Below, piece by piece: positions 22,501 through 40,898 of a stretch of DNA of 41,400 bases (the stretch's first letter is position 1; each line of letters starts with the position of its first letter). The position numbers were made by a program, and so were the translations under genes. The DNA is taken from contig DBFD01000025.1 in NCBI GenBank assembly GCA_002294185.1, forward strand, positions 1-41,400. Direction: 5' to 3'. The stretch is from Paracoccus sp. UBA889 (lineage in GTDB: Bacteria; Pseudomonadota; Alphaproteobacteria; Rhodobacterales; Rhodobacteraceae). The notes below the pieces were generated by a model, which was given only the letters and a program-made list of their open reading frames with translations, did not search any database and was not told the DNA's origin.

Positions 22501-25500
22501 AGCGAAACCCCGAGATGGCGCAGCTGGACCTGCGAATAGGTCCATGCCAGCCGCAACTCGTGTTCGAAACAGCCGGGGCGGGTAAAATGGGTGGCCAGCC
22601 GGGCGCAGTCCTCGGCGCTGTCGGCGATCAGCGTCCAGAAGGTGATCGAGGCGGATTTTCCGGCCGGCACGCGGATATGCCTGCGAATGGCGAAGATCGG
22701 ATCCAGCGTATGGCCCTGGCGCCCCGACAGGGTTGCGCCGCTCTTCATCGCGGCGGCGTCGGCCAGGCTGCGACCGCGGCCAAGAAAGGCGCGCCGGTCG
22801 GTTTCGGCCTCGGCGGCCGGGGTCAGCGCACCATCCGGCCCGGTCACCAGATGGGCCATATACAGCGACTGGCCGCGCGGATCGCGGGGCCGGCGCCGCG
22901 CCATGATCAGCGCGCCCTCGTCGCGGATCTCGGTTTCGACGAACATCTTGGAAAAGGCGGGATGGGCCCGGTCCGAGGCCGGATCGTCCAGCACGATCTC
23001 GCCATACGAGGTCACCTCGATGGTCCGGTCGCGCCCCGACAGGTTGCGCAGGGTCAGGCGGCGTCCGTCGGCATTGCCTTCGGTCGCCGCGATGATTTCC
23101 AGCCGGCTTTCGATCGCGTTGGCGGTCTTGAAGAATTCGGCCTTGTGATCGGAAAAGATCACCGTGCTGCGTTCGTCGGCCCCGCTGCACGGGGCGTGGG
23201 TCGCCGACCACCATTCCCCCGACTGGATGTCGCGCATGAGCAGATGGATACCGCCATCGTCCCGGGTCGGATCGGCGGACCACCGGTTCAGGGCGATATT
23301 GCCCAGCATGGCGCGCCCGGCGCCGGTCGAGGACACGAACATGGTGAAGGCGCCGGTCGACATCAGGGCCACCTCGCGTTCGGCCCGGCCCGGATCGCTG
23401 ACCACGGTCAGGGTATCGCCGCTGCTCAGCAGCGTATCCCGCCCCGGTCCGAAAGCCGTGGTCGCGCGCGTCACCGGCGTGATGTCGCGCGGCGACTTTT
23501 CCTGCAGCAGCAATTCTGATGCGCGCACGACCGGATCGGCGTGGAACCTTTCGCGATGAATGCCGTCGAGAACGGCGTTTCCGATCGCCAGCATCGACAT
23601 GCCGTGATGATGGGCCATGACGTTCTTCACGACGCTGTGATTGGCGCCCTCGCGCTGGCGGCGTGGCGAGAAATCGACCGCGTCATAGAACCCGAAGCGG
23701 CCCTCGGCGCCCAGTTCGCGCAGCGCGGCCAGGTTCCTGATCGCCGCCTGCGGGTCGATCTGTGCCGCCAGGATCGAGGCATAGGGCGCCACCACGTAAT
23801 CGCCGCCCGAACGCTTCAGCGCCAGGTTGGGAACGCCGAAGGCGTAATATTGATAGTTCATGTCCCGGTCGCGGGCGTTGAACGCGCTTTCCGAGATGCC
23901 CCAGGGCAGGCCGTGCGACCGCCCCCATTCCATCTGGATCGCGACCGCCATCTTGTCGGCGAGGTTGAGGATGCCGCCCTGACGTTCCTTCAGCAGCAGC
24001 GGCGGCATCAGGTATTCGAACATGCTGCCCGACCAGGACAGAAGCGCGCCGCGATGGCCGACCATCGCGAAGGGCCGGCCCAGACGCGACCAATGTTCCT
24101 TGCCCAGATCGCCCTTGGCGATGGCCAGGAAACTGGTCAGCCGCGCCTCCGAGGCCAGCAGGTCATAGCGGCTGCCGTCAAGCGCCTGCGCATCGGTGCG
24201 ATAGCCGATCGACATCAGCGACTTTTCGCGATCGACGAACAGGCTGAAATCCATCCCGAAGGCAAGGTTGCGCGCCCGCTCGGCCAGAAGCCGGGTCTGC
24301 AGGACGAACTTGTCCAGCGCCTCGGGCCGGGTTGTGACCGGGTTCAGGACATCGGCGGTGTCGCGCACCAATGCCGTGGACCAGGCCAGGATCTCGGCCG
24401 CGTCGCCGCGCGGGGTCGCCGCGTGCAGATCGCCCGCCAGTCGCCGGATGGTCGCGGCGCGGCTGATCAACTGCCCGGCCGCGACCGGATCGGCCAGCGA
24501 TCCGGGCAGGCTGTGCGCCACCGACCGGGCATAGCCGTCGATCGCCTCGCTCATCGCGCCGTGCAGGTCGCGCAGCGCACGGCGATCGTCGCGCAGCAGC
24601 TCCAGCTCGGCGCGCAGGATGTCCAGCGTGTCGCGCAGCCCCGCCGTGGCGGGCACGCGCACCGAAGGCGCGTGCGCCGCCCAGCCCCGCAGACCGGAGG
24701 ACAGCGCGATCAGCATCCCGGCAAGATTGCCGCTGTCGACCGAAGACAGATAGGGCGCGGGCAGCACCGACAGCGTTCTGGTGTCATACCAGTTGAAGAA
24801 ATGCCCGCGAAACCGCTGCATCCGTTCAAGCGTGGCGATGGTGGCCTCGATCCGTTTCAGCGCCGTGTCCAGGCCGATCCAGCCGAAATCATGCGCCGAC
24901 ATGACCGACATGAGATACAGCCCGATATTGGTCGGCGAGGTGCGTTCGGCCAGTTTCGGGGCTGGCAGTTCCTGATAATTGTCGGGCGGCAGATGGTTGG
25001 TCGTCTGGTCGACGAATTCGTCGAAATAGCGCCAGATGCGGCGGGCGATGCGCCGCAACTCGGCCTTGTCCTCGGCCGAGATCTGCAACTGGTCGACCGT
25101 TTCCAGCGACCGCGAGGCGCGAAAGGTGATCCAGGGCGCGGCGATCCACAGCGCGGCGAAAATCACCGCGACCGGAAGGGCGGATGGATTGACCGCCACA
25201 GAGGCCAGGATCGCGCCGCCGCCGATCAGGGGAGACGCGATCATCCGGCGATATTCGGCCGCAAGCCGGGGGTCGTCCCTGTCGCCGATCAGCTGCGATG
25301 GCGTCCATTCCAGCAGGTTGCGCCTGCTGACGGCCAGCCGCCACAAGGTCCGGAAGATGGCGTCCGCCGTCGACCAGGCCCGATCCGCGACCGTGGTCAG
25401 CCGCAGCCCGAACTGGGTGAACGAGATGCGGGCGTCGCGCAGCACCTGGTGGATGTGATACCCCCATGACACGCCATACTGGCGCCGAAGGACGTTGGTA

Positions 25501-28049: not shown

Positions 28050-28157
28050 CGACGAGTCTCCCTTCAAGGCCGGCAACACCAGAGGAACGGTATCACAAGA
28101 CGCGGCCGAAACAGCGCCGGAATCGCGGTTGCGCGGCAGACGGGCCGCATCCGGCAT

Positions 28158-29471
28158 TCACCCGCGTGGAGCCGATCGGATATTGTCGGGCAGCCAGGTG
28201 GCGAGGTCGGGAAAGAGGATCAGGACGAAGACCATCAGAACCATCAGCAGGAACATCGGGAACGCCGCCTTGGAAATGAAGCTCATCTCGTGGCCCGTCA
28301 TGCCTTGCAGCACGAACAGGTTGAACCCGATCGGCGGCGTGATCTGCGCCATCTCGACGACCACGACGATGAAGATGCCGAACCAGATCATGTCGATCCC
28401 GGCATCCCTGACCATGGGCTCGACCACGGCCATGGTCAGCACCACCGAGGAGATCCCGTCCAGGAACATGCCCAGGATGATATAGAACACCAGCAGCACC
28501 ATGAGAAGTTCGAAGCGCGACAGGTTCCAGCCCGCGATCAGGTTGGCCAGCCCGCGCGGCAGCCCGGTAAAGCCCATGGCAAGCGACAGGAACGCGGCAC
28601 CCGCAAGGATCAGCGCGATCATCGCCGATGTGCGCGTGGCCCCCAGAAGGCTTTCGGTAAAGCTTTTCCACGTCAGCGATCGCTGAAGCGCGGCAAGGGT
28701 CAGGCCGCCAAGAACGCCGAAGGCGGCGGCCTCGGTCGCGGTGGCGAAACCCAGATACATCGAGCCGATGACCACCAGGATCAGACAGATGACCGGCAGC
28801 AGGAAGCGTGAATTCACCACGCGGTCGCGAAACGACATCGGCGCGTCCTCGCGCGGGGTCCAGTGGCGCGAGGTTTGCGAACGGATCGCCACATAGGCCA
28901 TGAACAGCAGGGCCAGCACCAGCCCTGGCAGGACACCCGCGAAGAACAGCTTCGATATACTTTCGTTGATCGTGACGCCATAGACGATCAGCGTCAGCGA
29001 GGGCGGGATCATCAGGCCCAGCGTCGCCGCCCCGGCCAGCGTGCCGATCACCATCGATTCCGGATAATTGCGGCTGCGCAGTTCGGGGATGGACATCTTG
29101 CCGACGGTGGTCAGTGTCGCGGCCGATGAGCCGGACACCGCGGCGAAGACCGCGCAGCCGACGATGTTGGTATGGACAAGCCCGCCCGGCAGCCCCGCCA
29201 TCCAGGGCGAGAGCCCGCGGAACATGTCTTCCGACAATCGGGTCCGGTAGAGGATCTCTCCCATCCAGATGAACAGCGGCAGCGCGGTGAGGGTCCAGGA
29301 TGACGAGGCCGTCCAGATCGTGGTCAGCATCACATCGCCGACCGGACGCGAGGTGAACAGCTCCATGCCCACCCAGGCGACCCCCATGAGCGCGAGCCCG
29401 ACCCAGACGCCGCTGCCCAGAAGCGTGAACAGGACAAAGAGAAACAGGATGATGATGTAGAGGTTTTCCAT
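28158..29471 (-). CDS. dctM: TRAP transporter large permease (DctM)
   Basis: The 437-residue large membrane subunit of a tripartite ATP-independent periplasmic transporter, driving sodium- or proton-coupled uptake. About 12 helices are visible, with family blocks such as LPLFIWMGEIL, AAVSGSSAATLTTVG and LMIPPSLTLIVYGV. GGAG lies nine bases before the ATG at 29471, which follows the DctQ stop by four bases. It is the last gene of the long minus-strand catabolic run; the P and Q subunits directly precede it. The substrate is unknown; the family mostly takes up organic acids, and members such as TeaABC and UehABC take up ectoines. Confidence 0.93.
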   Translation of the reverse strand: MENLYIIILFLFVLFTLLGSGVWVGLALMGVAWVGMELFTSRPVGDVMLTTIWTASSSWTLTALPLFIWMGEILYRTRLSEDMFRGLSPWMAGLPGGLVHTNIVGCAVFAAVSGSSAATLTTVGKMSIPELRSRNYPESMVIGTLAGAATLGLMIPPSLTLIVYGVTINESISKLFFAGVLPGLVLALLFMAYVAIRSQTSRHWTPREDAPMSFRDRVVNSRFLLPVICLILVVIGSMYLGFATATEAAAFGVLGGLTLAALQRSLTWKSFTESLLGATRTSAMIALILAGAAFLSLAMGFTGLPRGLANLIAGWNLSRFELLMVLLVFYIILGMFLDGISSVVLTMAVVEPMVRDAGIDMIWFGIFIVVVVEMAQITPPIGFNLFVLQGMTGHEMSFISKAAFPMFLLMVLMVFVLILFPDLATWLPDNIRSAPRG

Positions 29472-29475
29472 CGCG

Positions 29476-30015
29476 CTACTCTCCGAAGCTCTGGTCGGAA
29501 AGATTCTGCCTGATCCGGTGCTTGCCGGTGGCGATGACGTGGATCAGGTGATCGGTCAGGGCGATGGCCAGGATGACGGCACCAAGCAGCATCGCGCTCT
29601 GGGGAATCCAGAGGGGGGTGGCATCCTGTCCCTGGCTGACATCCCCGAACTTCCAGGACCAGTAGACGAAGCGCCATCCATACCAGACGAAATACCACAT
29701 GACCGCCGCGCCGATCGCAAAGCACCAGACGTCAAGCCATCTGCGAACCTTCCGGGGAACGGCGTTCAGCACGATGGAGACGCGGATATGCGCGCCGTGA
29801 TTCAGGGCATAGGCAAAGGCCAGAAAGCTTGCCGCGGCCATCATGTATCCGGCATAGGCGGTCGCGCCGATCAGGACGCCGCCGGTCCAGCGGGCGGCCA
29901 TCTGGGCCACGATCAAGGCGAGAATGCCGATCAGGCACAATGCGGCAACGCCCCCCGCCAGATTGTAGATTGCATCGCAAACCGTTCTGACGCCGCGCAA
30001 CTTTCCCACGATCAT
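29476..30015 (-). CDS. dctQ: TRAP transporter small permease (DctQ)
   Basis: The small membrane subunit, 179 residues from ATG 30015, with four helices at about 18-40, 50-70, 95-115 and 140-160. The start is uncertain: TTG 30033 lacks a ribosome site, ATG 30015 has GGAC seven bases upstream, and GTG 30009 has GGGGGA six bases upstream, which is the best spacing. It lies between the P and M genes of the same transporter, as usual for the family. It is thought to bridge the binding protein and the large permease. Confidence 0.88.
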   Translation of the reverse strand: MIVGKLRGVRTVCDAIYNLAGGVAALCLIGILALIVAQMAARWTGGVLIGATAYAGYMMAAASFLAFAYALNHGAHIRVSIVLNAVPRKVRRWLDVWCFAIGAAVMWYFVWYGWRFVYWSWKFGDVSQGQDATPLWIPQSAMLLGAVILAIALTDHLIHVIATGKHRIRQNLSDQSFGE

Positions 30016-30081
30016 TCCCCCGTCCAGGTGCAAGAGGCCACGGAAGCGCCGGACGACGGCGAAGGCCGTCCGGCGAAAGGA

Positions 30082-31059
30082 TCACTTTTGCATGGCCCGG
30101 AACTTGTCCACGATGGCCTGACCGGGTTCGCCCGCCGTCTCGAGCCATTCCGAGGTCATGGTTGCCCCGATGTCCTTCAGTTCCGCCTTCATCTGATCGC
30201 TTGCCGGCTCTACCGTCATGCCGCCCTCGCGCAGCCCGTTCAGCGTGAACTGGGTGTATTCCTTCGCGCGCCAGGTTCCCGCATATTCCGCCAGCGCGCC
30301 ACAGGCGTTGATCACGTTCCTGTTCGCCTCGGAGGTCTTGGCCCAGACGTCCGAGTTGATCAGGACGTAGTTGCGCGGCAGCCAGGCGTCCACCTCGTAG
30401 AAATAGTTCAGGCTTTCCCAGACCTTGCGGTCGTAGCCGGTCGCGCCGGAGGAAATCATCGCATCCGCCACGCCGGTGGCGAAGGCCTGACTGATCTCGG
30501 CGGCCTCGATCTGGACCGGAAGCATGCCCGTCAGTTCGGCCAGCCGCGCGGTCGCGTTGCTGTAGGACCGGAACTTGACCCCCTTCATGTCGGCGATCGA
30601 TTTCGTCTCGTTCTTGAAATAGAGACCCTGCGGCGGCCACGGCACCGAATAGACCAGGGTCATGTTCTGCTTGGCCAGCAACTCGGTCAGCGCCGGTTTC
30701 GCGGCTGTCCACAGATCGGCGGCCTGATCGAAGGAGGTGGCGAGAAACGGAATGGAATCGACGCCGAACAGCGGATTTTCATTCTCGTGCGCCGACAACA
30801 GGCGCTCTCCGATCGGAACCTGGCCGGTCTGGACGGCGCGCTTGATGTCGTTGCCCGCAAAGAGCGAGCCCGAGGGATGCGTCTTGATCTCGATTTCGCC
30901 ACCCGTCCCGGTCGTCACGCAATTGCCGAATTGTTCGGCCGTCACCGAGTGGTAGTTGGTCGCGGAATAGGCCAGTGGCATGTCCCAGACTTCCGCGAAA
31001 CCGGGGGCCGCGACGCCGGCAAGTGCGGTCGCGGCAAGAAGCGTGGTCAGTTTAGTCAT
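30082..31059 (-). CDS. dctP: TRAP transporter substrate-binding protein (DctP)
   Basis: A 325-residue periplasmic solute receptor. A Sec signal peptide (MTKLTTLLAATALAG, cleavage after GFA at residue 22) is followed by the mature domain. The conserved arginine that salt-bridges the substrate carboxylate is in GVKFRSYSNA, and TGMLPVQIEAAEISQAFATG is the typical DctP block. GGGAG lies upstream of the ATG at 31059, 27 bases after the oxidase gene. Two extra cysteines (in FGNCVTT and NACGA) could form a disulfide. The retained arginine predicts a carboxylate-bearing ligand, consistent with the amino-acid-like substrates suggested by the upstream enzymes. Confidence 0.92.
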   Translation of the reverse strand: MTKLTTLLAATALAGVAAPGFAEVWDMPLAYSATNYHSVTAEQFGNCVTTGTGGEIEIKTHPSGSLFAGNDIKRAVQTGQVPIGERLLSAHENENPLFGVDSIPFLATSFDQAADLWTAAKPALTELLAKQNMTLVYSVPWPPQGLYFKNETKSIADMKGVKFRSYSNATARLAELTGMLPVQIEAAEISQAFATGVADAMISSGATGYDRKVWESLNYFYEVDAWLPRNYVLINSDVWAKTSEANRNVINACGALAEYAGTWRAKEYTQFTLNGLREGGMTVEPASDQMKAELKDIGATMTSEWLETAGEPGQAIVDKFRAMQK

Positions 31060-31086
31060 GTCGATCTCCCTGCTTTTTCTATAGTT

Positions 31087-32361
31087 TCAGTCCTGTCGTG
31101 CGTTTCCGGCCATCGCGAAACGTGCCGGAGAGTAAGGGCCCATGTCGATATCGGGCCGCCTGCCCGAGATAAGCTGGGCCAGCAGACGGCCGGTTTTTGG
31201 CCCACCGGTCAGTCCGACATGGTGGTGACCAAAGCCGAGATAGGCGCCGCTGACGGTCGGCGACGCGCCGATGATCGGAATGGAATCGGCCGGTGCCGGA
31301 CGGTGCCCCATCCATTCGCGCGTTTCCTGCGCGGCAAGGCCGGGAAAGGCCGCGACGGCCTGCCGCCTCAGCAGGGCAAGGGGCGCCCGGGACGCAGGCG
31401 GCTCCAGTCCGCCGAATTCCACCGTGCCCGCGACCCGCAGCCGCCCCTCCATCGGCGTCGCCACGAATTTTCCCGAGGCTACCATGACCGGTGCCTTCGG
31501 CGCCATGTTCGGCGCGACGAACTCGACGTGATAGCCGCGTTCGCTTTCCAGCGGAACGTCGATGCCCAGCTTGCGGGCCAGCGGGCGCGACCATGCGCCG
31601 GTGCAGAAGACCGCCGTATCGCAGGGCAGGATTTCGCCTGTGGCGCGCAGACCGGTCACGCGCCCGTTCTCTTGCACGATGTCGCTGACATCAGCCCTCA
31701 GGACGCGCCCGCCGAGGGATTGGAAATGGGCCGCCAGGTCCTTCACGTAGCGGCCCGGGTCGGTTATGCGGCCGTGACCCGGCAGACGCACGGCAAAGCC
31801 CAGATCCTCGGACAGAGCCGGGTCGAAATCCCGCAGCGCGCGGCCTTCCAGCTCGTCCCAGGCAAAGCCGTTCGCCGCACGGATGCCCCAGCCGAATGCG
31901 TCGGCCTCGAAATGCCTGCGATCCCTGTAGGCATAGAGATAGTCACATGGGGTGATCCGGTGCCGGGCCGGGGTTCCCGCGGCCAGTTCCTGATGGTCCG
32001 ACAGGCTGGCGCCGAGGATCGGTGTCAGCGCGCGGGCGATGCGGCGCACGTCCGGATCGTTGGCATGGCCCATATATCGGCGAAGCCAGGGCAGAAGCCT
32101 GGGCACATGGCGCCATTTCAGAAACAGGGGTTGTTCGGGATGGAACAGCATGTGCGGGGCCTTGCGCAGCAGGCCCGGAACGGTCACCGGAACGACGGCA
32201 CAGGCCGCAAGCACACCGCCATTGCCGAAGCTGGTGCCTTCTCCGGGTCCGGCACGATCCACGAGCGTGACCTCATGCCCGTCGCGACGAAGCCAGATCG
32301 CGGCCGAGACGCCGACGATGCCTGCGCCGACAACGATGATATGACGCGTGCCCTGCGTCAT
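31087..32361 (-). CDS. FAD-dependent D-amino-acid dehydrogenase-like oxidoreductase (DadA family)
   Basis: A 424-residue DAO/DadA-family flavoenzyme that would oxidise the amine of a D-amino acid, an N-alkyl amino acid or a cyclic imino acid. The FAD-binding [10 protein letters not shown] motif is at 12-21, with the acidic end of the second strand at [14 protein letters not shown]. Typical DadA blocks follow: [30 protein letters not shown] and, near the C-terminus, [18 protein letters not shown]. The ATG at 32361 overlaps the stop of the muconate cycloisomerase-family gene (ATGA), so the two are coupled. The electron acceptor is probably the quinone pool, as for DadA. Substrate is not determinable from sequence alone; the epimerase-type enzyme upstream could supply the right stereoisomer. 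Confidence 0.87.
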
Positions 32362-33587
32362 GCGGCGCGGCCGATGCTGGATCGCAGGGCGAATCGTTCC
32401 AGGATTTCGGCCGAAGGCGACATGCCCAGCCCGGGCGCATCCGGCACCACGACGGCACCGTCCCGCAGGGGAAAGGGTCCGTCGAGAATGTCCTGCCTCA
32501 GGTAGTAATGCGCCTGATAGAATTCGCAGCCCAGCGTGATGGCGGGGGTGGCGGCGATCATGTGCGCCCCGGCCAGATGGGCCAGTCCGGTCTCGAACAT
32601 GTCGCCGCCATAGGCCGTCAAACCCGATGCTGCCGCCATCTCGGCCTTCTGCCGGGCGCGCGAAAGGCCGCCGGCCTTCATGATCTTGACGGAAACCCCG
32701 TCGCAGATGCCTTCGCGGACGGCCCGCAGCATGTCCTCGGGGCCAAAGACGCTTTCATCGGCCAGCAGCGGCACGTCGATCGCATCGCGGATCCGCGCCA
32801 TCAGGGTGAACTGGCCGGCGCGCACCGGTTGCTCGATGAAGCCCGGCGCCATTTTCGCGACATCGCGGACCCGCGCCACGGCGTCTTCCGGGCCCAGCCC
32901 CTGGTTGAAGTCCACCCGGATCTCGATGTCGGGATGATCGGCGCGGATCCGCTCCAGCCGCATCATGTCAAAGCGATGCCCGCGCACGCCGGCCTTCAGC
33001 TTCACGATGCCCACGCCGTCCGCGGCCAGCCGGTCCACGAGCGCCAGATCGGCCTCGAAATCCGGGTCCGCAAGCGAGCAGGACAAGGGGATCGTATCGC
33101 GGCACTTTCCGCCCAGCAGCGCCCAGACCGGCACGCCGGCGATCCGCGCGCAAAGATCGAGCAGCGCGGTTTCAAGCGCGGCCTTGGCTTCCGTGGCATG
33201 GGCGACCGCGCCCGCGGCATCGGCCATGATCGCGCCCACATGACCCACCGGCCGATCCAGGACATGCGGGCGGATATAGCGGTCCAGCGCGGCAAAGCCT
33301 GCCTCGGCAGAGCCGGTGAACGGCGCCCAGGTGGCGGCTTCGCCGTAGCCTCGTTCGCCGCCCTCGGCCGTCAGGCGCAGGATGACGCTTTCGCACGACC
33401 CCGACACCGCGCCAAGACCGTGATCGCGCCGCGAGACGACGGGCAGCCGCAGATGCCACAGATCGAAGCCGGTGACGCGCTGAAGAAGATCGGGGCCGGC
33501 CCGGACGATGACCTCCGGGCGGTCCGGATTGTCTTCGTCTGCGTCGTCCTTCGGGCCGGTGCTGGGTCGCATGGGTTCGTCCGACAT
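32358..33587 (-). CDS. Mandelate racemase/muconate lactonizing enzyme family protein
   Basis: An enolase-superfamily enzyme of 409 residues from ATG 33587 (GAGG nine bases upstream). After an unusual acidic extension of about 35 residues, the N-terminal capping domain precedes a TIM barrel. The MLE-subgroup residues are present: the KxK pair Lys196/Lys198 (VKLKAG), metal ligands Asp226 (VDFNQG), Glu252 (FIEQP) and Asp277 (LLADES), and the opposing Lys301 (SVKIMKAGG). This set supports racemisation, epimerisation or cycloisomerisation through an enolate. Known subgroup members include muconate cycloisomerase, dipeptide epimerase and hydroxyproline-betaine epimerase; which one applies is not clear. 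Next to a DadA-like oxidase, an amino-acid-derivative epimerase is the more natural reading than muconate chemistry. Confidence 0.88.
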
Positions 33588-33618
33588 CACCAAGAACCTC
33601 GCGTTGCCGTGCCGGCCC

Positions 33619-33650
33619 GTGCCCCGTCCCGCTGCACTTTCGCGGGGCAC
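33619..33650 (-). other. Hairpin in the leader of the muconate cycloisomerase-family gene
   Basis: GTGCCCCG at 33619-33626 pairs perfectly with CGGGGCAC at 33643-33650 around a 16-base loop. It lies in the 202-base gap between the M24-type hydrolase stop and the next gene of the same run, and could be an intra-operon attenuator or RNA processing site. No T-run follows. The rest of the gap has no gene I can support. Confidence 0.4.
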
Positions 33651-33789
33651 CATTCCCGTTGCGCGAATGCTGCGGGACATTTGAAGACCGCGCGCCCGGA
33701 TGCGTCAACCTGAAATCCGCAGCCATCCCGGCCCGCCAGCGCCGGTTCCCGGCTTGGCGCGGCCCCTGGGGGTATCATCGGGGGCGGCA

Positions 33790-34962
33790 TCATTGCTTCA
33801 CCAGCAATCGGCGGGGCGATTGCGCGAAACACTCGGCGCCTGTCCCGGTGACCGCGAAGGTTTCGGAAATGGTCATGCCATAGCTCTCGCGCCAGATCGA
33901 GGGGATGCAGTGAAAGGTCATCCCGGCCTCGAGAACGGTCATGTCCCCGATGCGCAGACTGGCCGTCAGCTCGCCCCAGGTGGGCGGATAGCCCAGTCCG
34001 ACGGGATAGCCGATCCGGCTGTCCTTCTCGACGCCGTGCCTGGTGATCACGCGCTGCCAGGCCTCGGCCAGTTCGCCGCATGTGGCGCCGGGACGGACGG
34101 CGGCCAGGACAGCCTCCAGCCCCTCGGCGATGACGTCCGACAGGCGCCCGAGCTCGTCGGGCGGCGTGCCAAGATAGATGCAGCGCGACAGGGGGCTGTG
34201 ATATCGGTGCCGAACGCCGCCAAGCTCGATGTAGAAGATGTCGCCCTCGGCCAGCGGATCGTCCGTCCAGGAAAGATGCGGGGCCGAACACATCTCGTTT
34301 GCCATCGCGTTTGGCGGCTTGCAGGGAAAGGTGCCGCCGAATTCCGGCAGCCCCGAAGTCGTCACGCGATAGACCTCGGCCATGACGTCGCATTGGCGCA
34401 CGCCCGGTTCCGCGGCCTCGAAGGCGGCCCGTTGCGCCGCGGTCGCGATCTGCCCGGCCTGGCGCATGTAGGTCAGCTCCCGCTCCGACTTTACCATGCG
34501 GCAGCGGTTCACCAGGAGAAAGGCGTCCTCGAAGCGGGCCTTGTCCAGACGCGCGCGCAGGATGTGGTCCCAACGCGCGGTGTAGTAGTAATCATCGGTT
34601 TCAACCCCGATGCGGCCCTTCTCCAGCCCCATCGCGATCAGCGTGTCGGCCACGAAGTCCATCGGGTGAAGACTGTCCGATCCGACGAACCGGTCGGGAT
34701 AGGGGACGACATTCTCGGCGGCAAGATAGGCGGTGAATTTCGCGCCGACCGCATCCATCTTGCGGCCGATCCAGACCGGTTCATCCAGATCCGCGGCGAC
34801 AATGACCATCTGCGGCGTGTAGAACGACCATCCGTCATATCCGGTCAGCCAGTTCTGGTTGGCCGGTGACGCGACCAGCAACAGGTCGATGTCCCGGTCG
34901 GCCATCGCGCGCTTGACCAGCCGAAGGCGCGACAGAAACTCGGATCTCTCGAAAAGCGGCAT
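33790..34962 (-). CDS. M24-family pita-bread hydrolase, ectoine hydrolase/creatinase-like
   Basis: A 390-residue enzyme with a creatinase N-terminal domain (about 8-150) and a pita-bread domain (about 160-385). AGGAG lies seven bases before the ATG at 34962. Blocks such as NWLTGYDGWSFYTPQ (37-51) and RYHSPLSRCIYLG (253-265) are those I recall from ectoine hydrolases DoeA/EutD. The metal-ligand positions of metallo-aminopeptidases are lost: YIELGGV replaces the usual IDLG and SPLSR replaces SDxTR, as in metal-free creatinase. His229 (SAPHLSW) matches the catalytic His of creatinase (GPHNP). It should therefore open a C-N bond of a cyclic amidine, guanidino or N-substituted amino acid. The deacetylase that completes ectoine breakdown (DoeB/EutE) is absent here, so the substrate may differ from ectoine. 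Confidence 0.85.
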   Translation of the reverse strand: MPLFERSEFLSRLRLVKRAMADRDIDLLLVASPANQNWLTGYDGWSFYTPQMVIVAADLDEPVWIGRKMDAVGAKFTAYLAAENVVPYPDRFVGSDSLHPMDFVADTLIAMGLEKGRIGVETDDYYYTARWDHILRARLDKARFEDAFLLVNRCRMVKSERELTYMRQAGQIATAAQRAAFEAAEPGVRQCDVMAEVYRVTTSGLPEFGGTFPCKPPNAMANEMCSAPHLSWTDDPLAEGDIFYIELGGVRHRYHSPLSRCIYLGTPPDELGRLSDVIAEGLEAVLAAVRPGATCGELAEAWQRVITRHGVEKDSRIGYPVGLGYPPTWGELTASLRIGDMTVLEAGMTFHCIPSIWRESYGMTISETFAVTGTGAECFAQSPRRLLVKQ

Positions 34963-35009
34963 GATCTGACTCCTGTTGCGACATTCGGGTTTCGGGCGGC
35001 CGGTCGGTG

Positions 35010-36545
35010 TCATCTGTCTCCAAGATCGAAAGCGCGCGTGATGTCGCGATCCAGCAGACCCTTGCGGATGCGTTGGCTGGGCGTGCGTTCGAACCGCTCG
35101 ACCCGTTTCCAGTATCGCGGCACATGCGGCCGGGGCAGGTTCTCGCGGCTCCACGCGGCCAGTGCCGCCGGATCGTAGTCGACCCCCTCGCGCAGCAGCA
35201 CATGGCACAGGATATCATGGTCCCCGATCCGCGATGGCACGCCGGTGACGGCAATCTCGGCGATGTCGGGATGGGCGGCCAGCGCCGTCTCGACCTCCCA
35301 GGCCGAGATATTCTCGCCCCGGCGGCGCAGCGAATCCGTCGTCCGCCCCAGAAAGTAGAGATGTCCGTCACGATCCCGCCGGGCCAGATCGCCGGTAAAC
35401 AACCGGCCATCCTTCAGCAGTTTCGCGCTCGCCTGCGGATCTCCGAGATATCCGGGCGTCAGCAGCCCGGCCTGACGTTCGCGCACCACGATCTGGCCGG
35501 TGGCCGCGCCGTCGAGGACATGGCCCGAGGCATCGTGCAATTCGACATCGAACCAGGGAACGGGCGCGCCGATGGCCCCTTCGGTGCCGTCCAGGTTGAT
35601 GGTGGCAAAGCTGGATGCCTCGGTCATGCCATAGACTTCGCGCAGGGGAACCCCGAAACGGGACTGGAATGCGCGCCGGATATCGGCCCGGCAGCCGCCC
35701 CCGAAGCCAAGTGTCACGGCGTGGTTCCGGTCCCCGGCCGATGGCGGCGCCCGCAGCAGGATCTCGGGGATGCCGCCCAGATAATGGATCCGGGTCACGT
35801 CGTGGCGGCGCACCTGATCCCAGAACCGGCTGGCGCTGAACCGGGGCACCAGCACCAGCCGCGCCTGACAGGCAAGCGCGGCGATCAGCAGTTGCGGCCC
35901 GCCGATATGGTGCATCGGCTCCCACATCAGATAGCCGGCGCCGACCGAGCAGTCGCTGGCGATCGCGCAGCCCGCAGCCGAGGCCAGAAGCATCCTCTCG
36001 GTCACGATGACGCCCTTGGGCGGTCCGGTCGTGCCCGAGGTGAACAGGATTGCCCGATGCGCATCGGGATCGTCCGGCGGTTCCAGGGCCGGTGGATCGG
36101 TGGGAACGCCGCCCCAGCCGCTTGCCTCGAATTCCACGATCCTGCCTGTCTGCCCCGTGTCGGCGGCGCGCAGATTGGCCACGGCCCCGGCGCCGGCCAG
36201 GATCAGCTTCGGCGTCGCCACCGCCAGCGCATGGACCAGCGACGGTCCGCGGGCCTCGGGCGACAGCGGGATCCAGACGGCGCCGGCCAGGGCCAGCGCC
36301 AGGACCAGCGCGACATGGTCCGGACCGGGGTCGAGCATCGTGACCACGCGGTCGCCGGCGGCGATGCCCTGCGCGCCCAGATCGGCCGCTTGCTGCAAGG
36401 CGGCCGCGGCGAGGGCGCCGACGCTGATCGCCGCGCCCCGATGGATCAGCAGCGTGCTGTCGGGTGCCGCAAGGGCGCGATCGCGCAGCAGGGTGCCAAG
36501 GGTGCCTGCGAAAGGGGGCTGCAACGGGGCGGGGGGTGCGGACAT
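35010..36545 (-). CDS. AMP-dependent acyl-CoA synthetase/ligase
   Basis: A 511-residue ANL-family enzyme that activates a carboxylic acid to its CoA thioester via an acyl-adenylate. The start at 36545, four bases after the hydratase stop, is taken with AAGG upstream. Motifs in order: P-loop LFTSGTTGPPKGV (about 190), acyl-pocket MHHIGG (about 235), FGGGCR and the adenine motif YGMTEASS (about 330), TGD (about 395), hinge GRTTDSLRRRGENIS (about 412), and the C-terminal catalytic lysine in QRIRKGLL (about residue 497). The set is complete. The RRRGENIS version is typical of crotonobetaine/carnitine-CoA ligase (CaiC)-like and medium-chain enzymes. The next gene encodes an enoyl-CoA hydratase, giving a CoA-dependent degradation branch similar in layout to carnitine metabolism. 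Confidence 0.9.
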   Translation of the reverse strand: MSAPPAPLQPPFAGTLGTLLRDRALAAPDSTLLIHRGAAISVGALAAAALQQAADLGAQGIAAGDRVVTMLDPGPDHVALVLALALAGAVWIPLSPEARGPSLVHALAVATPKLILAGAGAVANLRAADTGQTGRIVEFEASGWGGVPTDPPALEPPDDPDAHRAILFTSGTTGPPKGVIVTERMLLASAAGCAIASDCSVGAGYLMWEPMHHIGGPQLLIAALACQARLVLVPRFSASRFWDQVRRHDVTRIHYLGGIPEILLRAPPSAGDRNHAVTLGFGGGCRADIRRAFQSRFGVPLREVYGMTEASSFATINLDGTEGAIGAPVPWFDVELHDASGHVLDGAATGQIVVRERQAGLLTPGYLGDPQASAKLLKDGRLFTGDLARRDRDGHLYFLGRTTDSLRRRGENISAWEVETALAAHPDIAEIAVTGVPSRIGDHDILCHVLLREGVDYDPAALAAWSRENLPRPHVPRYWKRVERFERTPSQRIRKGLLDRDITRAFDLGDR

Positions 36546-36549
36546 CTGT

Positions 36550-37317
36550 TCAGCCCTTGCCGCGTTTGCCCAGAAACTTTCGCGTCCCGGCATGCATCTC
36601 GCCGGATTCGAAGGACAGCCGGTGATACCGCTTTGCCGCGGCGATCGCTTCATCCAGTCCGGGCTCGAGGACTTCGAAAAGCCGTTGCTTGATCAGGCTC
36701 ATCGCTGTCGGGGGCTTCGCGCCAAGCTCTTGCGCCACGGCGATGGACCGTTCCAGCACCTGGTCCTGTTCGACGATCTCATGGATCGCGCCCAGGCCAA
36801 GCGCCTCGTCGGCCTTCATCAGTCGCCCGCTCAGCGTCAGTTCGACCGTCCGGGACAGGCCCAGCATCTCGCGCATGATCCAGGGCCCGGTGATGCTGGC
36901 GATGCCAGAGTTGATTTCGGGCTGCCCCATGCGGACACCCGAATGGCCGATCCGGATATCCGTCAGAAGCACGAACTGAAAGGCCGACCCGGCGGCGACA
37001 CCGTTCAGCGCCGCGACCACCGGCACCCGCAGCGATCCAAGCGCGCGGTAAAGTCGGGCGAAGCCGTCGATCCATTCCTCGGCCCTGCCGGTATCGAATG
37101 TGCCCAGCTCGTCCAGATCCTGCCCGGCGCAGAAGGCCCGGTCGCCGGCGCCGGTCAGCACCACCGAGCGCACGCCGCGATCCGAAGCCGCCGCCGTCAG
37201 CCGTTCCACCAGCCGGGCGCGCATCGCTTCGGTCCAGGCGTTCAGGCGTGCCGGGCGGTTCAGCGTCAGCACCAGACACCCCTCCCTGCGGGTTTCCATG
37301 ATGTCGTCGTCAGCCAT
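36550..37317 (-). CDS. Enoyl-CoA hydratase/isomerase family protein
   Basis: A 255-residue crotonase-fold enzyme acting on an acyl-CoA. AAGGAG lies upstream of the ATG at 37317. The first oxyanion-hole segment is AFCAGQDLDEL (about 61-71) and the second GVAAGSAFQFVLLTDIRIG (about 106-124). At the usual catalytic glutamate positions, FQFVLLTD has no Glu where hydratases have one, while GQPEINSGI retains the second Glu (about 135). This suggests a reaction other than simple hydration (for example isomerisation, decarboxylation or dechlorination), or altered chemistry. The gene is packed four bases before the CoA ligase start and 33 bases after the racemase-family gene, so the two CoA enzymes probably act in sequence. 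Confidence 0.88.
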   Translation of the reverse strand: MADDDIMETRREGCLVLTLNRPARLNAWTEAMRARLVERLTAAASDRGVRSVVLTGAGDRAFCAGQDLDELGTFDTGRAEEWIDGFARLYRALGSLRVPVVAALNGVAAGSAFQFVLLTDIRIGHSGVRMGQPEINSGIASITGPWIMREMLGLSRTVELTLSGRLMKADEALGLGAIHEIVEQDQVLERSIAVAQELGAKPPTAMSLIKQRLFEVLEPGLDEAIAAAKRYHRLSFESGEMHAGTRKFLGKRGKG

Positions 37318-37350
37318 CGGGCTCGGGCTCCTTCCTGCGGGTCGTCGCGC

Positions 37351-38127
37351 TCATGCGGGCGCTTTCGGCGCGGTGCTGAAATCGCGTGGCCGCAGCCCCG
37401 CGTGAAACCATGTGACCAGGGAATAGATGTCGTAGACCGGCAGTCCGGTGGCCGCCCGGACCGCGGTGCTGTAGGGCGACATGTTCGTGCATTCCAGGAC
37501 GATGGCGCCGACTTCGCGATGTCGCGCGACAAGGTCTTGCGCAGCCGCGACGACATCCGCGCAGGCCAGCGCCAGATCGAGATCCTGCTTTTCGGCCCTG
37601 ATGATGGTGCGAAAGAACTCGGTGCCGTTCTCGGTGCCGCGGATCGGAGTATCGGCCGGCACCCCTATGCCCTCCAGATGCGCGATCGTCAGGCCCGGCG
37701 CATTGATGGTCACAATCCCTGCGCGCCTGCCCGGTGGCAAAGCCGCGTCGATCCACGGCACCTGCATCATCGCCGAGGTTGCGACGGGCACCCGGACCGC
37801 CTCGACCAGTTCCTTCTGAAAGATCGAAAGGAAGCCGCAATTCGTCGTGATGCCCTCGGCGCCAAGATCGACAAGATCGCGGGCGGCAGCGATGAAGTCG
37901 TCCAGAAGACCACGGGCTGCGTCGCAGACCACGCGGTCCGGGGTGGCGCCCCGCACGATCCGGTACATCACCGGGAACGGCCAGGTCAGGGCGTTGCCCA
38001 TCTCTCCGTAGACGCGCGGAAAACGCGCCTCCAGCATCAGGATGCCAAGGGGCGCGCCATAGATGGCCTTGCCGCCCGTCGCGAGATGGGTTCCGGGCGC
38101 GCCGAACGGTCGGATCGGGTCGGACAT
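37351..38127 (-). CDS. Aspartate/glutamate/hydantoin racemase-family protein
   Basis: A 258-residue member of the Asp/Glu racemase superfamily. The two catalytic cysteines are Cys97 (in EGITTNCGFLS) and Cys213 (in LECTNMSPY), in the expected symmetric positions, so a two-base racemase, isomerase or decarboxylase mechanism is possible. The family includes glutamate and hydantoin racemases, maleate isomerase, arylmalonate decarboxylase and EutA of ectoine utilisation. Its ATG at 38127 overlaps the stop of a possible 40-codon leader ORF (TGATG). It lies between the ThDP enzyme and the enoyl-CoA hydratase. Given the EutD/DoeA-like hydrolase in the same run, EutA is the closest functional parallel, but the operon lacks the rest of that pathway. 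Confidence 0.85.
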   Translation of the reverse strand: MSDPIRPFGAPGTHLATGGKAIYGAPLGILMLEARFPRVYGEMGNALTWPFPVMYRIVRGATPDRVVCDAARGLLDDFIAAARDLVDLGAEGITTNCGFLSIFQKELVEAVRVPVATSAMMQVPWIDAALPPGRRAGIVTINAPGLTIAHLEGIGVPADTPIRGTENGTEFFRTIIRAEKQDLDLALACADVVAAAQDLVARHREVGAIVLECTNMSPYSTAVRAATGLPVYDIYSLVTWFHAGLRPRDFSTAPKAPA

Positions 38128-38249
38128 CAGCGAAATCCCTTTGCGCCGAAGAATGCAGGATCGTCGCCCGCAACCAGCCGGGTCGCAAGCCCTCGCCCGC
38201 GCGCCCGGCCCAGAGGCCGGTCAGCGGCCGCCGTGACATCAGCCCTCAT
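38127..38249 (-). CDS. Candidate 40-residue ORF with perfect ribosome site, coupled to the racemase gene
   Basis: In the gap between the ThDP enzyme and the racemase-family gene, an ATG at 38249 has AAAGGAGG five bases upstream and opens a frame of 40 codons whose TGA overlaps the next gene's ATG (TGATG). The peptide begins MRADVTAADRPLGRARGRG and ends in DDPAFFGAKGFR. It has no recognisable domain; the arginine-rich first half and the aromatic tail are the only visible traits. It could be a leader peptide that couples translation, a remnant of a lost gene, or a small protein. The very strong ribosome site, which the racemase gene itself lacks at its own ATG, is the main support. Confidence 0.45.
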   Translation of the reverse strand: MRADVTAAADRPLGRARGRGLATRLVAGDDPAFFGAKGFR

Positions 38250-38318
38250 CCCGTCCTCCTTTCGCTCAGCCCCCGCCGATCGCGCGATGTTGCCGTCTCG
38301 GCCCGGTCGGCCAGACCC

Positions 38319-40064
38319 TCATCCCATCCACCGGCGCACCGGCGCGTTCGATTCCTCCAGCGGCTGCACGACCACATCGACAAGCGTCGGACCGTCATGC
38401 GCCACCGCTTTGGCCAGCACGGATTCCAGATCGGCGGGGTCTTCCACCCGCCAGGATTTCACCCCATAGGCGGCGGCCACCGCGGCCTGATCCACGCCGC
38501 TGAAATCGACGTTGTAGTAGCGGCCGCCCTTGTCATCCTTCTGGCTTGCCTTGATCCAGCCGTAGCTTGCGTTGGAAAAGACGACGAAGGTGATGGGCGC
38601 GCGCGACCGGCAGACCGTCTCCAGTTCGCCGCAGGTGAATCCGAACGACCCGTCCCCCATCAGCGCGACCGTCTTGCCCGATGGCCGGCCGAACCACGCG
38701 CCCAGCGATGCCGACAGCGCATAGCCAAGCGCGCCATGCGCGCGGTTGGTGATGAAACGGCGACCCGCCAGCGATTGTCGGTAATAGGCCGATGCATAGG
38801 GACACGACGTTCCGGGATCCGAGACGACCGTCGCATCCGGGGCAAGCACCTTCATCAGGGCGGCGATCACGCGCTCGGGGCGGATCGGTCGGGCGTCCTC
38901 GGCGGCGATCCTGTCAAAGATCGCGAATTTGCGGCGCTTGATGTCGGCCACGGCCGCCGCACCGCCAAAGGTCGCGCCGCCCTGCCCGCGGCGGTCAAGC
39001 TGGGCATTGGCCATGGCCAGCGCCACCCGCAGATCCCCCACGACGCCGACCTCGGTCGGAAGGTTGGCCCCGATCGCCATCGGATCGACATCGAAATGGA
39101 CGATCCGCGTGCCCGGCGACGGGGCCTCCCAGCGGGCGGTGGTCGTCGAACCCGCGCGGCACCCCATGAAAACGACGAGATCGGCCGATTGCATCATTTC
39201 CCAGGTCTCGTCGGTGCCTCCGTTCGAGCCCACGACGCCAAGCGCGCAATCATGCGTGTCGGCCAGCGAGCCCTGACCCGAAATCGACGTGGCCACGGCG
39301 ATGTCCAGACGCCCCGCAAGACGGTCCAGTTCGTCCATCGCGCCGGAAACGACAATGCCACCGCCGCAGACGATCAGCGGTTTGCGGGCCGAAAGGATTG
39401 CATCCACCGCCGCTTCGACGGCCTCGGCCTCGGGACCCGTGCGATAGGCGGGATAGGTCGCAAGCCCGCGATCCGCCCAGATGTCCGACGAATCCACCGG
39501 ATCGTATTGAATATCATAGGGCAAACCCAGATGCGCCGCACCCGGCCGGCCCGTCGTCATCGCACGAAACGCCGCCCGGACCATGCGGGGGATGTGTTCG
39601 GCCTTCCGGATGACGGTATTCCACTTGGTCAGGGGGCGCATCAGGGCCTCCTGATCCACTTCGGTCAGCGGGTATCTGCCGTAGGTCGAGACCGAAATAT
39701 CGCTGGTGATGGCCAGCGTCGCGATGGAGCTTTCGGAAGATTCGATCAGTCCCGGCAGGATATAGGTGGCGCCGCCGCCCGATGGACCTTCGCAGATGCC
39801 GGGGCGGCCCGTCACCCGGGAATAGCCATCGGCCATGTACCCCGCGCTGCGTTCGTCGCGGGTCAGGACATGTTCGATATCGTGGTCAAGCAGATGCATC
39901 GCGTCATAGAACGGCAGGCTGGTATCGCCGCATAATCCGAAGATGTGCCTGACATCGTGGGCCTGAAGCATCCGGACCATCGCCTCGGCACCATTCAGCT
40001 TGTTGTCCAGGACCGTCCCTCCGCTTCCACCCGCCGCGCCGCTTGAAGCCTTCGTTGTATACAT
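38319..40064 (-). CDS. Thiamine pyrophosphate-dependent enzyme (acetolactate synthase-like)
   Basis: A ThDP enzyme of 581 residues from ATG 40064. The N-terminal PYR domain has the activating glutamate in TRDERSAGYMADGYSR (Glu71), a central domain (about 190-330) follows, and the C-terminal PP domain has GDGSFGFTCGELET with the downstream Asn in FSNASYGWIK (about 466-500), the Mg-ThDP motif. It would decarboxylate a 2-oxo acid, perhaps with carboligation or transfer. The first 18 residues are Gly/Ser/Ala-rich and have no counterpart in the family; the ATG lies inside a palindromic operator and has no ribosome site. A CTG at 40010, preceded by GGAGG seven bases upstream, would begin at the first conserved residues (DNKLNGAEAM) and put the glutamate at 53, the usual position. 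The real start may be there. It is the first enzyme gene downstream of the GntR regulator. Confidence 0.9.
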   Translation of the reverse strand: MYTTKASSGAAGGSGGTVLDNKLNGAEAMVRMLQAHDVRHIFGLCGDTSLPFYDAMHLLDHDIEHVLTRDERSAGYMADGYSRVTGRPGICEGPSGGGATYILPGLIESSESSIATLAITSDISVSTYGRYPLTEVDQEALMRPLTKWNTVIRKAEHIPRMVRAAFRAMTTGRPGAAHLGLPYDIQYDPVDSSDIWADRGLATYPAYRTGPEAEAVEAAVDAILSARKPLIVCGGGIVVSGAMDELDRLAGRLDIAVATSISGQGSLADTHDCALGVVGSNGGTDETWEMMQSADLVVFMGCRAGSTTTARWEAPSPGTRIVHFDVDPMAIGANLPTEVGVVGDLRVALAMANAQLDRRGQGGATFGGAAAVADIKRRKFAIFDRIAAEDARPIRPERVIAALMKVLAPDATVVSDPGTSCPYASAYYRQSLAGRRFITNRAHGALGYALSASLGAWFGRPSGKTVALMGDGSFGFTCGELETVCRSRAPITFVVFSNASYGWIKASQKDDKGGRYYNVDFSGVDQAAVAAAYGVKSWRVEDPADLESVLAKAVAHDGPTLVDVVVQPLEESNAPVRRWMG

Positions 40065-40076
40065 CGATGTCTACAA
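40055..40076. promoter_or_regulatory. GntR-type palindromic operator at the start of the catabolic operon
   Basis: TTGTATACAT at 40055-40064 and ATGTCTACAA at 40067-40076, separated by CG, form a 22-bp palindrome with one mismatch per arm. TGTATACA is itself a perfect palindrome and matches the TTGTATACAA-type sites bound by GntR regulators of the FCD group. A GntR/FCD regulator gene ends 126 bases upstream. The site overlaps the inferred transcription start, consistent with repression. Confidence 0.65.
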
Positions 40077-40079
40077 GAC

Positions 40080-40108
40080 ACCATGCACAGCCGGTTTCAT
40101 CGGGTCAA
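40080..40108 (-). promoter_or_regulatory. Putative promoter of the catabolic operon
   Basis: On the minus strand TTGACC (40108 to 40103, five of six matches to the -35 consensus) is followed after 17 bases by CATGGT (40085 to 40080, three of six to the -10). Transcription would begin near 40072, inside the palindromic operator. The weak -10 makes this a tentative call. Confidence 0.35.
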
Positions 40109-40202
40109 GCCGCCATCTGCGGGCATGGCGCCCGGGGATGCTCTGATGCCATGCGTATCGTCCCCCTCGGGCGGCGGATCCCATCTTGCCGGGCCGGCTG
40201 CG

Positions 40203-40898
40203 CTAGCCGGTCGAAAGCGTGTAGACATGCCCGTAGGCCGCCTTGATCGCGGCAAGGATGTCTTCGTTGCGATGCAGAATGTGTTCTCTCATTCCTGCCA
40301 TCGCCGCCCGGTCATCGCGGGCCTGCATATGGTCGAGGATCCGGCGGTGTTCGGCCTGTGTGCCCTGACGCCGGCCTTCCATGGCGATCCAGCGGATAAG
40401 GTGAATACGGTCGTTGAGGTTGCAGAGGGTCTGTCGCAGCACCTTGTTGCCCGCCAGCTTGGCGATGGTGTCGTGAAAATGCAGATCCAGCTCGATCAGC
40501 CTGTCAACCGACGCATCGGGCGATTCCGCCATGCTCAATTCGAGAAAATCGGACATGCGGGCAAGGTCCGCGTCCGTGGCGCGTTCGCAGGCCATTCGGA
40601 CCGTGGCGCATTCGATTTCCAGCCGCGCCTCGAACAGGTCGAAAACGACCTCCGGCTCCAGGCCGGGAATGGAAAGACCGCGGCCGCTGCTGACCAACAG
40701 CCCCTCGGCCGCGAGGCGGTTCAGGGCTTCGCGCAACGGCGTCCGGCTGATCCTCAGCTCGTCGGCCAGCAGATTTTCGTTTATCTTCTGGTTCGGCATG
40801 AACTTGAAACGCAAAAGCCGGTCGCGCAGCATGTCATAGGCGCGATGCGATGCCGAGGCCGTGACCTTGCCTTTCGACGGCTTGCTGGGTGTGGTCAT
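40203..40898 (-). CDS. GntR-family transcriptional regulator, FCD subgroup
   Basis: A 231-residue regulator. The winged helix-turn-helix lies at about 15-80 (ELRISRTPLREALNRLAAEG is the recognition segment), and the C-terminal all-helical FCD domain spans about 90-220, with candidate metal/ligand-binding Asp and His residues in ELDLHFHDTIAKLAGN and later in AEHRRILDHM and MREHILHR. GAGGGG lies upstream of the ATG at 40898. FCD regulators usually sense a substrate or intermediate of the adjacent catabolic pathway. The TGTATACA-type palindrome 126 bases downstream, at the first enzyme gene, is the likely operator. It is transcribed in the same direction as the operon, so readthrough could also feed it. 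Confidence 0.92.
   Translation of the reverse strand: MTTPSKPSKGKVTASASHRAYDMLRDRLLRFKFMPNQKINENLLADELRISRTPLREALNRLAAEGLLVSSGRGLSIPGLEPEVVFDLFEARLEIECATVRMACERATDADLARMSDFLELSMAESPDASVDRLIELDLHFHDTIAKLAGNKVLRQTLCNLNDRIHLIRWIAMEGRRQGTQAEHRRILDHMQARDDRAAMAGMREHILHRNEDILAAIKAAYGHVYTLSTG

Follow-up and report, generated by a model that had tools for sequence, protein, structure and literature searches.

A conserved GntR/FCD-headed gene set in Paracoccus sp. UBA889, tentatively read as an operon that would take up and degrade pyroglutamate or one of its close analogues

Which compound is consumed by a probably regulated set of catabolic genes whose enzymes fit no route that we found described? 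This question is raised by positions 28158-40898 of contig DBFD01000025.1 of Paracoccus sp. UBA889, where the reverse strand of the window (the whole stretch analysed, 41,400 nucleotides) encodes a GntR/FCD regulator together with ten structural genes. A sequence-only reading of this DNA had described a GntR-led, one-strand set of named enzyme families with no matching known pathway, and had leaned towards ectoine utilisation. All eleven open reading frames (ORFs) are present, and the ten proteins that were profile-scanned (all except the small permease DctQ) match the families named there; our literature search found no described pathway with this gene set. The set is real, conserved, undescribed in the literature searched and made of known families. 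We tentatively propose, with somewhat less than even confidence, that it is a GntR/FCD-controlled operon by which the cell takes up and degrades pyroglutamate (5-oxoproline) or one of its close analogues. The sequence-only reading is upheld in part; it had missed the receptor subfamily, the 5-oxoprolinase link, the division into core and accessory genes and the putative operator.

The closest solved relatives of DctP, the receptor of the tripartite ATP-independent periplasmic (TRAP) importer, are 6wgm, which we take to be a marine receptor with bound pyroglutamate, and 2pfz and 2pfy, presumably the Bordetella receptors BP1887 and BP1891 (Table 1); the next match falls to E 3e-16. Ungapped identity is 158/300 (52.7%) with 6wgm, 124/298 (41.6%) with 2pfz and 123/298 (41.3%) with 2pfy, and 64 positions are identical across all four proteins, a number that is not a count of ligand contacts. 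The importer had earlier been likened to the ectoine-type UehABC system, a comparison that does not hold: DctP scores 337.9 bits against 6wgm and 30.5 bits against 3fxb, which we take to be the ectoine-type receptor UehA. Kinship with its defining receptors places DctP, as judged by sequence, in the pyroglutamate-binding DctP subfamily. In PMC13274462, PMC11668362 and PMC12344293, this subfamily is credited to Rucktooa et al. 2007, and Bordetella DctP6 and DctP7 (BP1887/BP1891) are described as solved with pyroglutamate, with a dissociation constant of 0.3 uM for DctP7. The likeness to the Bordetella system is drawn from the receptor (41-53% identity to the three structures).

Independent support for a pyroglutamate-type substrate comes from genes next to the importer. 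Of the 69 loci of relatives in which the sequence continues for more than 8.8 kb downstream, 16 have pxpB, pxpC and pxpA after the same TRAP genes; these are genes of the 5-oxoprolinase (PxpABC) type, named via the Pfam families CT_C_D, CT_A_B and LamB_YcsF, and for PxpA also via NCBIfam. The PxpABC route differs in having no role for racE, DadA, the thiamine diphosphate (ThDP) enzyme, the M24 hydrolase, the coenzyme A (CoA) ligase or the crotonase, and pxpA, pxpB and pxpC are absent from the operon described here. Such genes lie on another contig of the same genome (C41), where PxpA exceeds its subfamily cut-off and PxpB- and PxpC-like genes (39 and 47%) adjoin it, the former detected by tblastn and the latter encoding a protein under its cut-offs. 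Receptor subfamily and 5-oxoprolinase link together yield a testable and moderately supported substrate class, pyroglutamate or a close analogue, in line with the cyclic amino-acid-like substrate suggested by the sequence-only reading.

Next, the neighbourhoods of relatives divide the gene set into a core and an extension. A scan with the enolase-superfamily protein of the MLE subgroup found 179 relatives, and the best 80 of these supplied the locus counts. All 72 MLE loci with more than 6 kb downstream hold dadA, dctP, dctQ and dctM, so the co-location of MLE, DadA and TRAP genes is beyond chance. Where more than 6.5 kb lies upstream (n=63), racE is present in 51 loci, gntR in 47 and the ThDP gene in 42. 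Upstream sequence of 9 kb or more is available for 62 loci, and in 3 of these (L001, L002 and L003) crotonase, CoA ligase and M24 genes occur together. Both the ThDP and the GntR gene are lacking in L003, which leaves L001 and L002 as the only loci examined with all ten structural genes; L051 carries crotonase and CoA ligase genes after the TRAP genes, without M24. The gene content of L001 reads crotonase, CoA ligase, M24, gamma-glutamyltransferase (GGT), racE, GntR, ThDP, MLE, DadA, DctPQM, pxpBCA. The core is thus racE, GntR, ThDP, the DadA-like oxidase and TRAP, often with MLE, and the rarer extension is M24, CoA ligase and crotonase. Nine further loci (L153, L160, L162, L177, L179, L183, L184, L187 and L191), from genomes that have no close MLE match, hold racE, ThDP, DadA and TRAP together, and six of the nine also have GntR.

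The association extends to whole genomes. Among 198 genomes of the family, MLE is found in 21, ThDP in 36 and both in 17; with the own genome excluded, ThDP occurs in 16/20 MLE-positive and 19/177 MLE-negative genomes (Fisher p 1e-10, uncorrected for kinship). A set of 27 genomes has no close ThDP gene in the MLE stretch, some of these stretches ending close upstream of MLE, and 20 of them carry ThDP elsewhere; the set comprises 30 ThDP-less loci minus L003, L006 and L025, with L036 (35% hit) added and L077 not included.

Table 1 Predicted features of the gene set and the evidence for each assignment.
Feature	Position	Strand	Evidence
Imperfect palindrome TTGTATACATCGATGTCTACAA, putative GntR operator	40055..40076		in gntR-ThDP gap
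GntR/FCD regulator	40203..40898	-	PF07729 98.1 bits, PF00392 55.4 bits
ThDP-dependent enzyme, acetolactate-synthase-like	38319..40064	-	PF02775/PF00205/PF02776; TIGR00118 365.7 bits vs cut-off 538.35
RacE, Asp/Glu/hydantoin-racemase superfamily	37351..38127	-	NF005679 305 bits (cut-off 231); Asp_Glu_race 28.8 bits (cut-off 31)
Crotonase-family enzyme (ECH_1)	36550..37317	-	PF00378 148.6 bits
AMP-forming acyl-CoA ligase	35010..36545	-	PF00501 178.9 bits
M24 creatinase/EutD-like hydrolase (Creatinase_N + Peptidase_M24)	33790..34962	-	TIGR02993 424.7 bits vs cut-off 613
Enolase-superfamily enzyme, MLE subgroup (MR_MLE N/C)	32358..33587	-	PF13378 164.6 bits; PDB 3i6e E 6e-164
DadA-like FAD amino-acid dehydrogenase (DAO)	31087..32361	-	PF01266 191.2 bits; NF001933 199.6 bits, cut-off 383 not reached
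TRAP receptor DctP (by sequence in the pyroglutamate-binding subfamily)	30082..31059	-	6wgm E 6e-100, 2pfz 3e-77, 2pfy 6e-76
TRAP small permease DctQ	29476..30033	-	ORF, position, tblastn conservation
TRAP large permease DctM	28158..29471	-	PF06808 271.9 bits

A conserved palindrome marks the head of the gene set. The palindrome TTGTATACATCGATGTCTACAA overlaps the first ATG (40064) of the ThDP ORF, and its core TGTATACA occurs a single time in the window (40056), inside the gntR-ThDP gap. The same core is present in 52 of 54 gntR-ThDP gaps of relatives, the exceptions being L051 and L182; two pairs (L010/L150 and L016/L186) are apparently the same genomes, which gives 50/52, and kinship makes these counts less than independent. 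Elsewhere, 2.59 Mb of partly overlapping loci hold 8 more copies (0.003 per kb), 5 of which also adjoin ThDP, gntR or racE. Allowing up to two mismatches, TTGTATACAA was found in 54 of 67 regions, the window included, against 5.6 expected from 20 mononucleotide shuffles per region; a guessed motif, tried before the palindrome was detected, found nothing. The FCD domain and the adjacent conserved palindrome characterise the regulator as GntR/FCD type with a putative operator, and the gene set is probably GntR-regulated. In the proposed scheme, GntR would bind the TGTATACA palindrome and repress until an intermediate builds up.

Gene spacing, computed with the likeliest start codons, points to a likely single transcript, on account of several tight junctions: the MLE and DadA ORFs share 4 nt, spacers of 4 nt lie between crotonase and CoA ligase and between dctQ and dctM, and gaps of 27, 33 and 47 nt separate DadA/dctP, racE/crotonase and CoA ligase/M24. 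Three gaps exceed 100 nt (gntR/ThDP 138 nt; ThDP/racE 191 nt; M24/MLE 109-202 nt depending on the start); the tight or overlapping junctions described earlier are those of part of the set. The MLE start is uncertain (33680, 33587 or 33572), and that of the CoA ligase was set at 36545 from likeliest-start analysis and the L003 homologue, its ORF being open to 36653. Scans for sigma-70 promoters and terminators gave no signal above chance.

How could these enzymes consume a pyroglutamate-like compound? The acid would enter through the TRAP system of the pyroglutamate-receptor subfamily. Its alpha-carbon stereoisomers would be interconverted by RacE, helped by the MLE-family enzyme in loci that have one, and the M24 EutD-like hydrolase would open the ring or an amide C-N bond. 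The DadA-like flavoprotein would then oxidise the D-form to a 2-oxo acid and hand the electrons on to respiration. Decarboxylation or cleavage of that acid would fall to the ThDP enzyme, and the CoA ligase and crotonase would process the resulting carboxylic acid. We infer this order of steps and the individual reactions, including the points at which M24, CoA ligase and crotonase would act, from enzyme families, and give any one order less credence than the pyroglutamate-or-analogue reading; as a reading, the logic of epimerisation, oxidation and ThDP chemistry already put forward for this locus finds support.

For RacE, Cys 97 and Cys 213 are invariant in 32/32 aligned sequences, and an AF2 model (predicted local distance difference test, pLDDT, 87.9) matches arylmalonate decarboxylase, the hydantoin racemase 2eq5, and aspartate and glutamate racemases at template-modelling (TM) scores of about 0.5-0.6 and less than 20% identity (for the first two, TM 0.51-0.60 and at most 18% identity among the matches listed). 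Both cysteines together with the modelled fold suggest a two-base cysteine racemase; arylmalonate decarboxylase keeps one cysteine only. Several enzymes match at similar TM and low identity, so no particular substrate can be read from the fold. Hydantoins and pyroglutamate both contain a five-membered lactam whose alpha proton is acidic. Mammalian D-glutamate cyclase, according to PMC5339696, yields 5-oxo-D-proline and has a region homologous to Asp/Glu/hydantoin racemases, and may serve as a chemical precedent only.

The MLE-subgroup enzyme has the conserved residues K167/K169, D197, E223, D248 and K272, with K167, K169 and K272 each kept in at least 97% of 104 sequences, a lysine pattern compatible with 1,1-proton transfer. 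Two named functions were rejected for it: muconate cycloisomerase (TIGR02534, 210 bits against a cut-off of 334.95) and the hydroxyproline-betaine epimerase HpbD, which we take 2pmq to be (E 1e-18, against the far stronger match to 3i6e). The 4-hydroxyproline betaine route resembles the operon in pairing an MLE-subgroup epimerase with D-amino-acid oxidation; it differs in that 2pmq is far from the operon enzyme and no demethylase family was seen among the scanned operon proteins. The ThDP enzyme falls short of the acetolactate synthase cut-off (Table 1), and none of the 25 matches listed, out of 55, reaches its own cut-off.

Gene neighbours in other genera are consistent with a 2-oxo acid as the DadA product, the order being MLE-DadA-ThDP-SDR in Shinella and MLE-DadA-D-2-hydroxyacid dehydrogenase in Thioclava. 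In both genera MLE-DadA is accompanied by an amino-acid ABC importer, which would also suit an operon for D-amino acids with no lactam involved. In that case the receptor would have drifted to another amino acid, RacE would supply the D-form for oxidation by DadA, and the 2-oxo acid so formed would be decarboxylated by the ThDP enzyme. We regard this as rather unlikely. It gains from the nine loci in genomes without a close MLE match, whose stretches show neither M24 nor pxp hits, and from RacE homologues that adjoin genes of a multi-component FAD dehydrogenase in Bosea and Agrobacterium; it has to contend with a receptor nearest to pyroglutamate receptors and with pxp genes beside the same TRAP genes.

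Ectoine was the substrate to which the sequence-only reading had leaned, given the likeness of the operon to ectoine degradation (EutABCDE/DoeAB + TRAP) in its M24 hydrolase, its racemase-superfamily protein and its TRAP importer. A variant operon for ectoine or hydroxyectoine would account for the resemblance of M24 to DoeA (6twk, E 1e-104) and for the TRAP and racemase-superfamily genes that eut clusters also have. We nevertheless consider it very improbable. The M24 protein falls well short of the EutD cut-off, and a true EutD (702 bits, cut-off 613) is encoded elsewhere in the own genome, on contig C60, in a cluster (L131) where EhuR and EutB also exceed their cut-offs; EutC there is over the NF006141 cut-off and just under the other, and the EutA match is weak (213 bits vs 318). 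This cluster also carries distant TRAP genes, and its EhuR is a MocR-type regulator. EutB, EutC and EutE are absent from the ten operon proteins scanned, an absence that had been pointed out earlier, and the regulator family and receptor type differ from those of ectoine degradation. The suggested resemblance to EutA also fell away, RacE matching NF005679 and giving no TIGR02990 (EutA) match at 1e-3, with a weak match to CuyB.

A maximum-likelihood tree of M24 proteins (44 rows) supports the separation: the operon M24 and its relatives form a clade of 12 rows from 9 genomes with branch support of 100/99, apart from a 29-row set that includes the own EutD, for which alone an EutD-model score was taken. 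The tree includes three genomes twice (L126/L092, L127/L093 and L003/L128), has long branches outside the operon group, some joining beside it, and contains L159 and L174, whose composition is unlike. GGT lies near the M24 gene in L001, L002, L084, L126, L127, L159 and L174. In Bradyrhizobium (L084:9989-16107), the M24 relative stands in a row with GGT-family and racemase-family genes and an ABC importer, and in L126/L127 its companions are a GGT-family gene and one for a protein that by eye is RidA-like. A required role for GGT was rejected, since paralogs at 34-39% are all that the own genome and the L003 genome contain.

Most of the core and extension recurs in a streamlined genome. Locus L159 (29.4% GC in the stretch) belongs to an alphaproteobacterial genome of 1.32 Mb, 99% complete, which may be called SAR11-like from its small size and base composition. 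Within 12 kb its order is M24 (57%), GGT, TauE-, racE-, ThDP, DadA, DctP, DctQ, DctM, crotonase (45%) and CoA ligase (35%). L174, from genome G894 of the same family (91% complete, 8% contaminated), repeats this order through crotonase, where the stretch ends. That so small a genome retains both parts speaks for a link between extension and core. The combination is rare in that family, since the L159 M24 is matched at E<=1e-110 in 4 of its 117 genomes, itself included, two of them only at 43-44%. Beside the L159 cluster lies a DmdA-like protein (14646-15800, reverse strand; 384 bits against a dimethylsulfoniopropionate demethylase cut-off of 410 bits).

These loci bear on an alternative in which separate modules with different substrates, GntR-racE-ThDP, MLE-DadA-TRAP and crotonase-CoA ligase-M24, have been joined. 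Ruegeria pomeroyi DSS-3 has racE-GntR-ThDP with no annotated MLE, DadA or TRAP within 10 kb, R. pomeroyi SZCCDBG043 has an MLE-DadA-TRAP-pxp locus without ThDP, which sits on another contig, 12 of 20 ThDP loci have no dctP nearby, and crotonase-CoA ligase pairs (52/42%) are found in other settings. We hold such a joining to be unlikely in view of the compact 12-kb cluster, its repeated order in a second genome and the co-occurrence of ThDP and MLE across genomes. Joint conservation, the test by which the earlier description of the locus was to be judged, did not refute that description: the core genes stay together widely, and core and extension recur for the most part in the streamlined genome. 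The full set is rare, with modules also found apart.

A sulfonate pathway ending in sulfite release would fit the TauE/SafE-family genes that lie close to the cluster, detected by Pfam in L001 and L159 and by tblastn in L003, L051 and L174, and pta with a putative sulfate exporter beside racE in L085 and L032. We find this scarcely credible and rejected it, because such neighbours are too sporadic: L085 and L032 were alone among the loci examined for it in having pta and the exporter, and TauE occurs in 3/69 loci and nowhere in the window operon.

Several observations weigh against the pyroglutamate proposal itself. Membership of the subfamily leaves the ligand of DctP unfixed; the CoA ligase and crotonase are without an obvious place in the route, and we know of no DadA-type enzyme that acts on a lactam. 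No GGT ortholog was found in the own genome. ThDP and pxp genes locally avoid each other (3/41 vs 13/28, p 3e-4), and modules stand apart in some genomes. At distant MLE places (n=18, from 20 outside the own genome with G538 and G666 left out), we found racE-family genes at 9, ThDP at 8, dadA at 6 and dctP at 4; 20 ThDP loci, hand-chosen from the ThDP genome-search results, gave racE 15, gntR 12, dctP 8 and dadA 8; and 20 loci around related DctP gave racE-family 13 (two weak), dadA 8, ThDP 5 and pxpA 1, a non-random set drawn from the best 29 outside the own genome, of which four were taken with another set and G726, G601, G775, G680 and G507 skipped. Of the 295 family genomes, 5, the own included, have a crotonase match at E<=1e-70, and only one other than the own exceeds 55% identity. 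In L159 and L174, GntR, the palindrome and MLE are all absent. The frequent lack of TRAP beside ThDP and distant MLE genes, and the SAR11-like loci without GntR, lowered our confidence.

If the ring simply gave glutamate, a dedicated racemase, D-oxidase and ThDP enzyme would look superfluous, which argues against plain pyroglutamate and for an analogue that bears a substituent. Hydrolysis of a lactam is also unfavourable in the absence of ATP, with an equilibrium constant of about 0.035 given in PMC13274462. A bolder form of the proposal, which we consider improbable, is that marine alphaproteobacteria including SAR11-like cells degrade pyroglutamate-type lactams by a second route that spares ATP. 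Racemases would convert the imported lactam to its D-form, a creatinase-fold hydrolase would open the ring, and irreversible D-specific oxidation followed by ThDP decarboxylation would pull the hydrolysis forward, replacing the ATP-driven 5-oxoprolinase.

Around the operon, a 2863-aa ORF (19566-28157, reverse strand) directly abuts dctM; it carries the supersandwich and catalytic domains of GH94 as well as a glucoamylase-like domain, resembles by eye a cyclic beta-1,2-glucan synthase and was not counted in the operon. Further along the same strand, 14706-16199 encodes the ATPase of an ABC transporter and 16822-17730 a glycine-betaine substrate-binding protein of the OpuAC type; the two may belong to an osmolyte importer. 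In relatives, a protein of ~310 aa with the look of a membrane transporter follows dctM in 49/69 loci (L001:16103-17038 and relatives); the one copy scanned had no Pfam match at 1e-5.

With a conserved, regulated set in roseobacters and in a SAR11-like genome, the proposed function would give gene names to the marine turnover of such compounds. It would also provide a role for solved but generically named proteins such as 3i6e and 3i6t, and the tight putative operator would make the regulon traceable.

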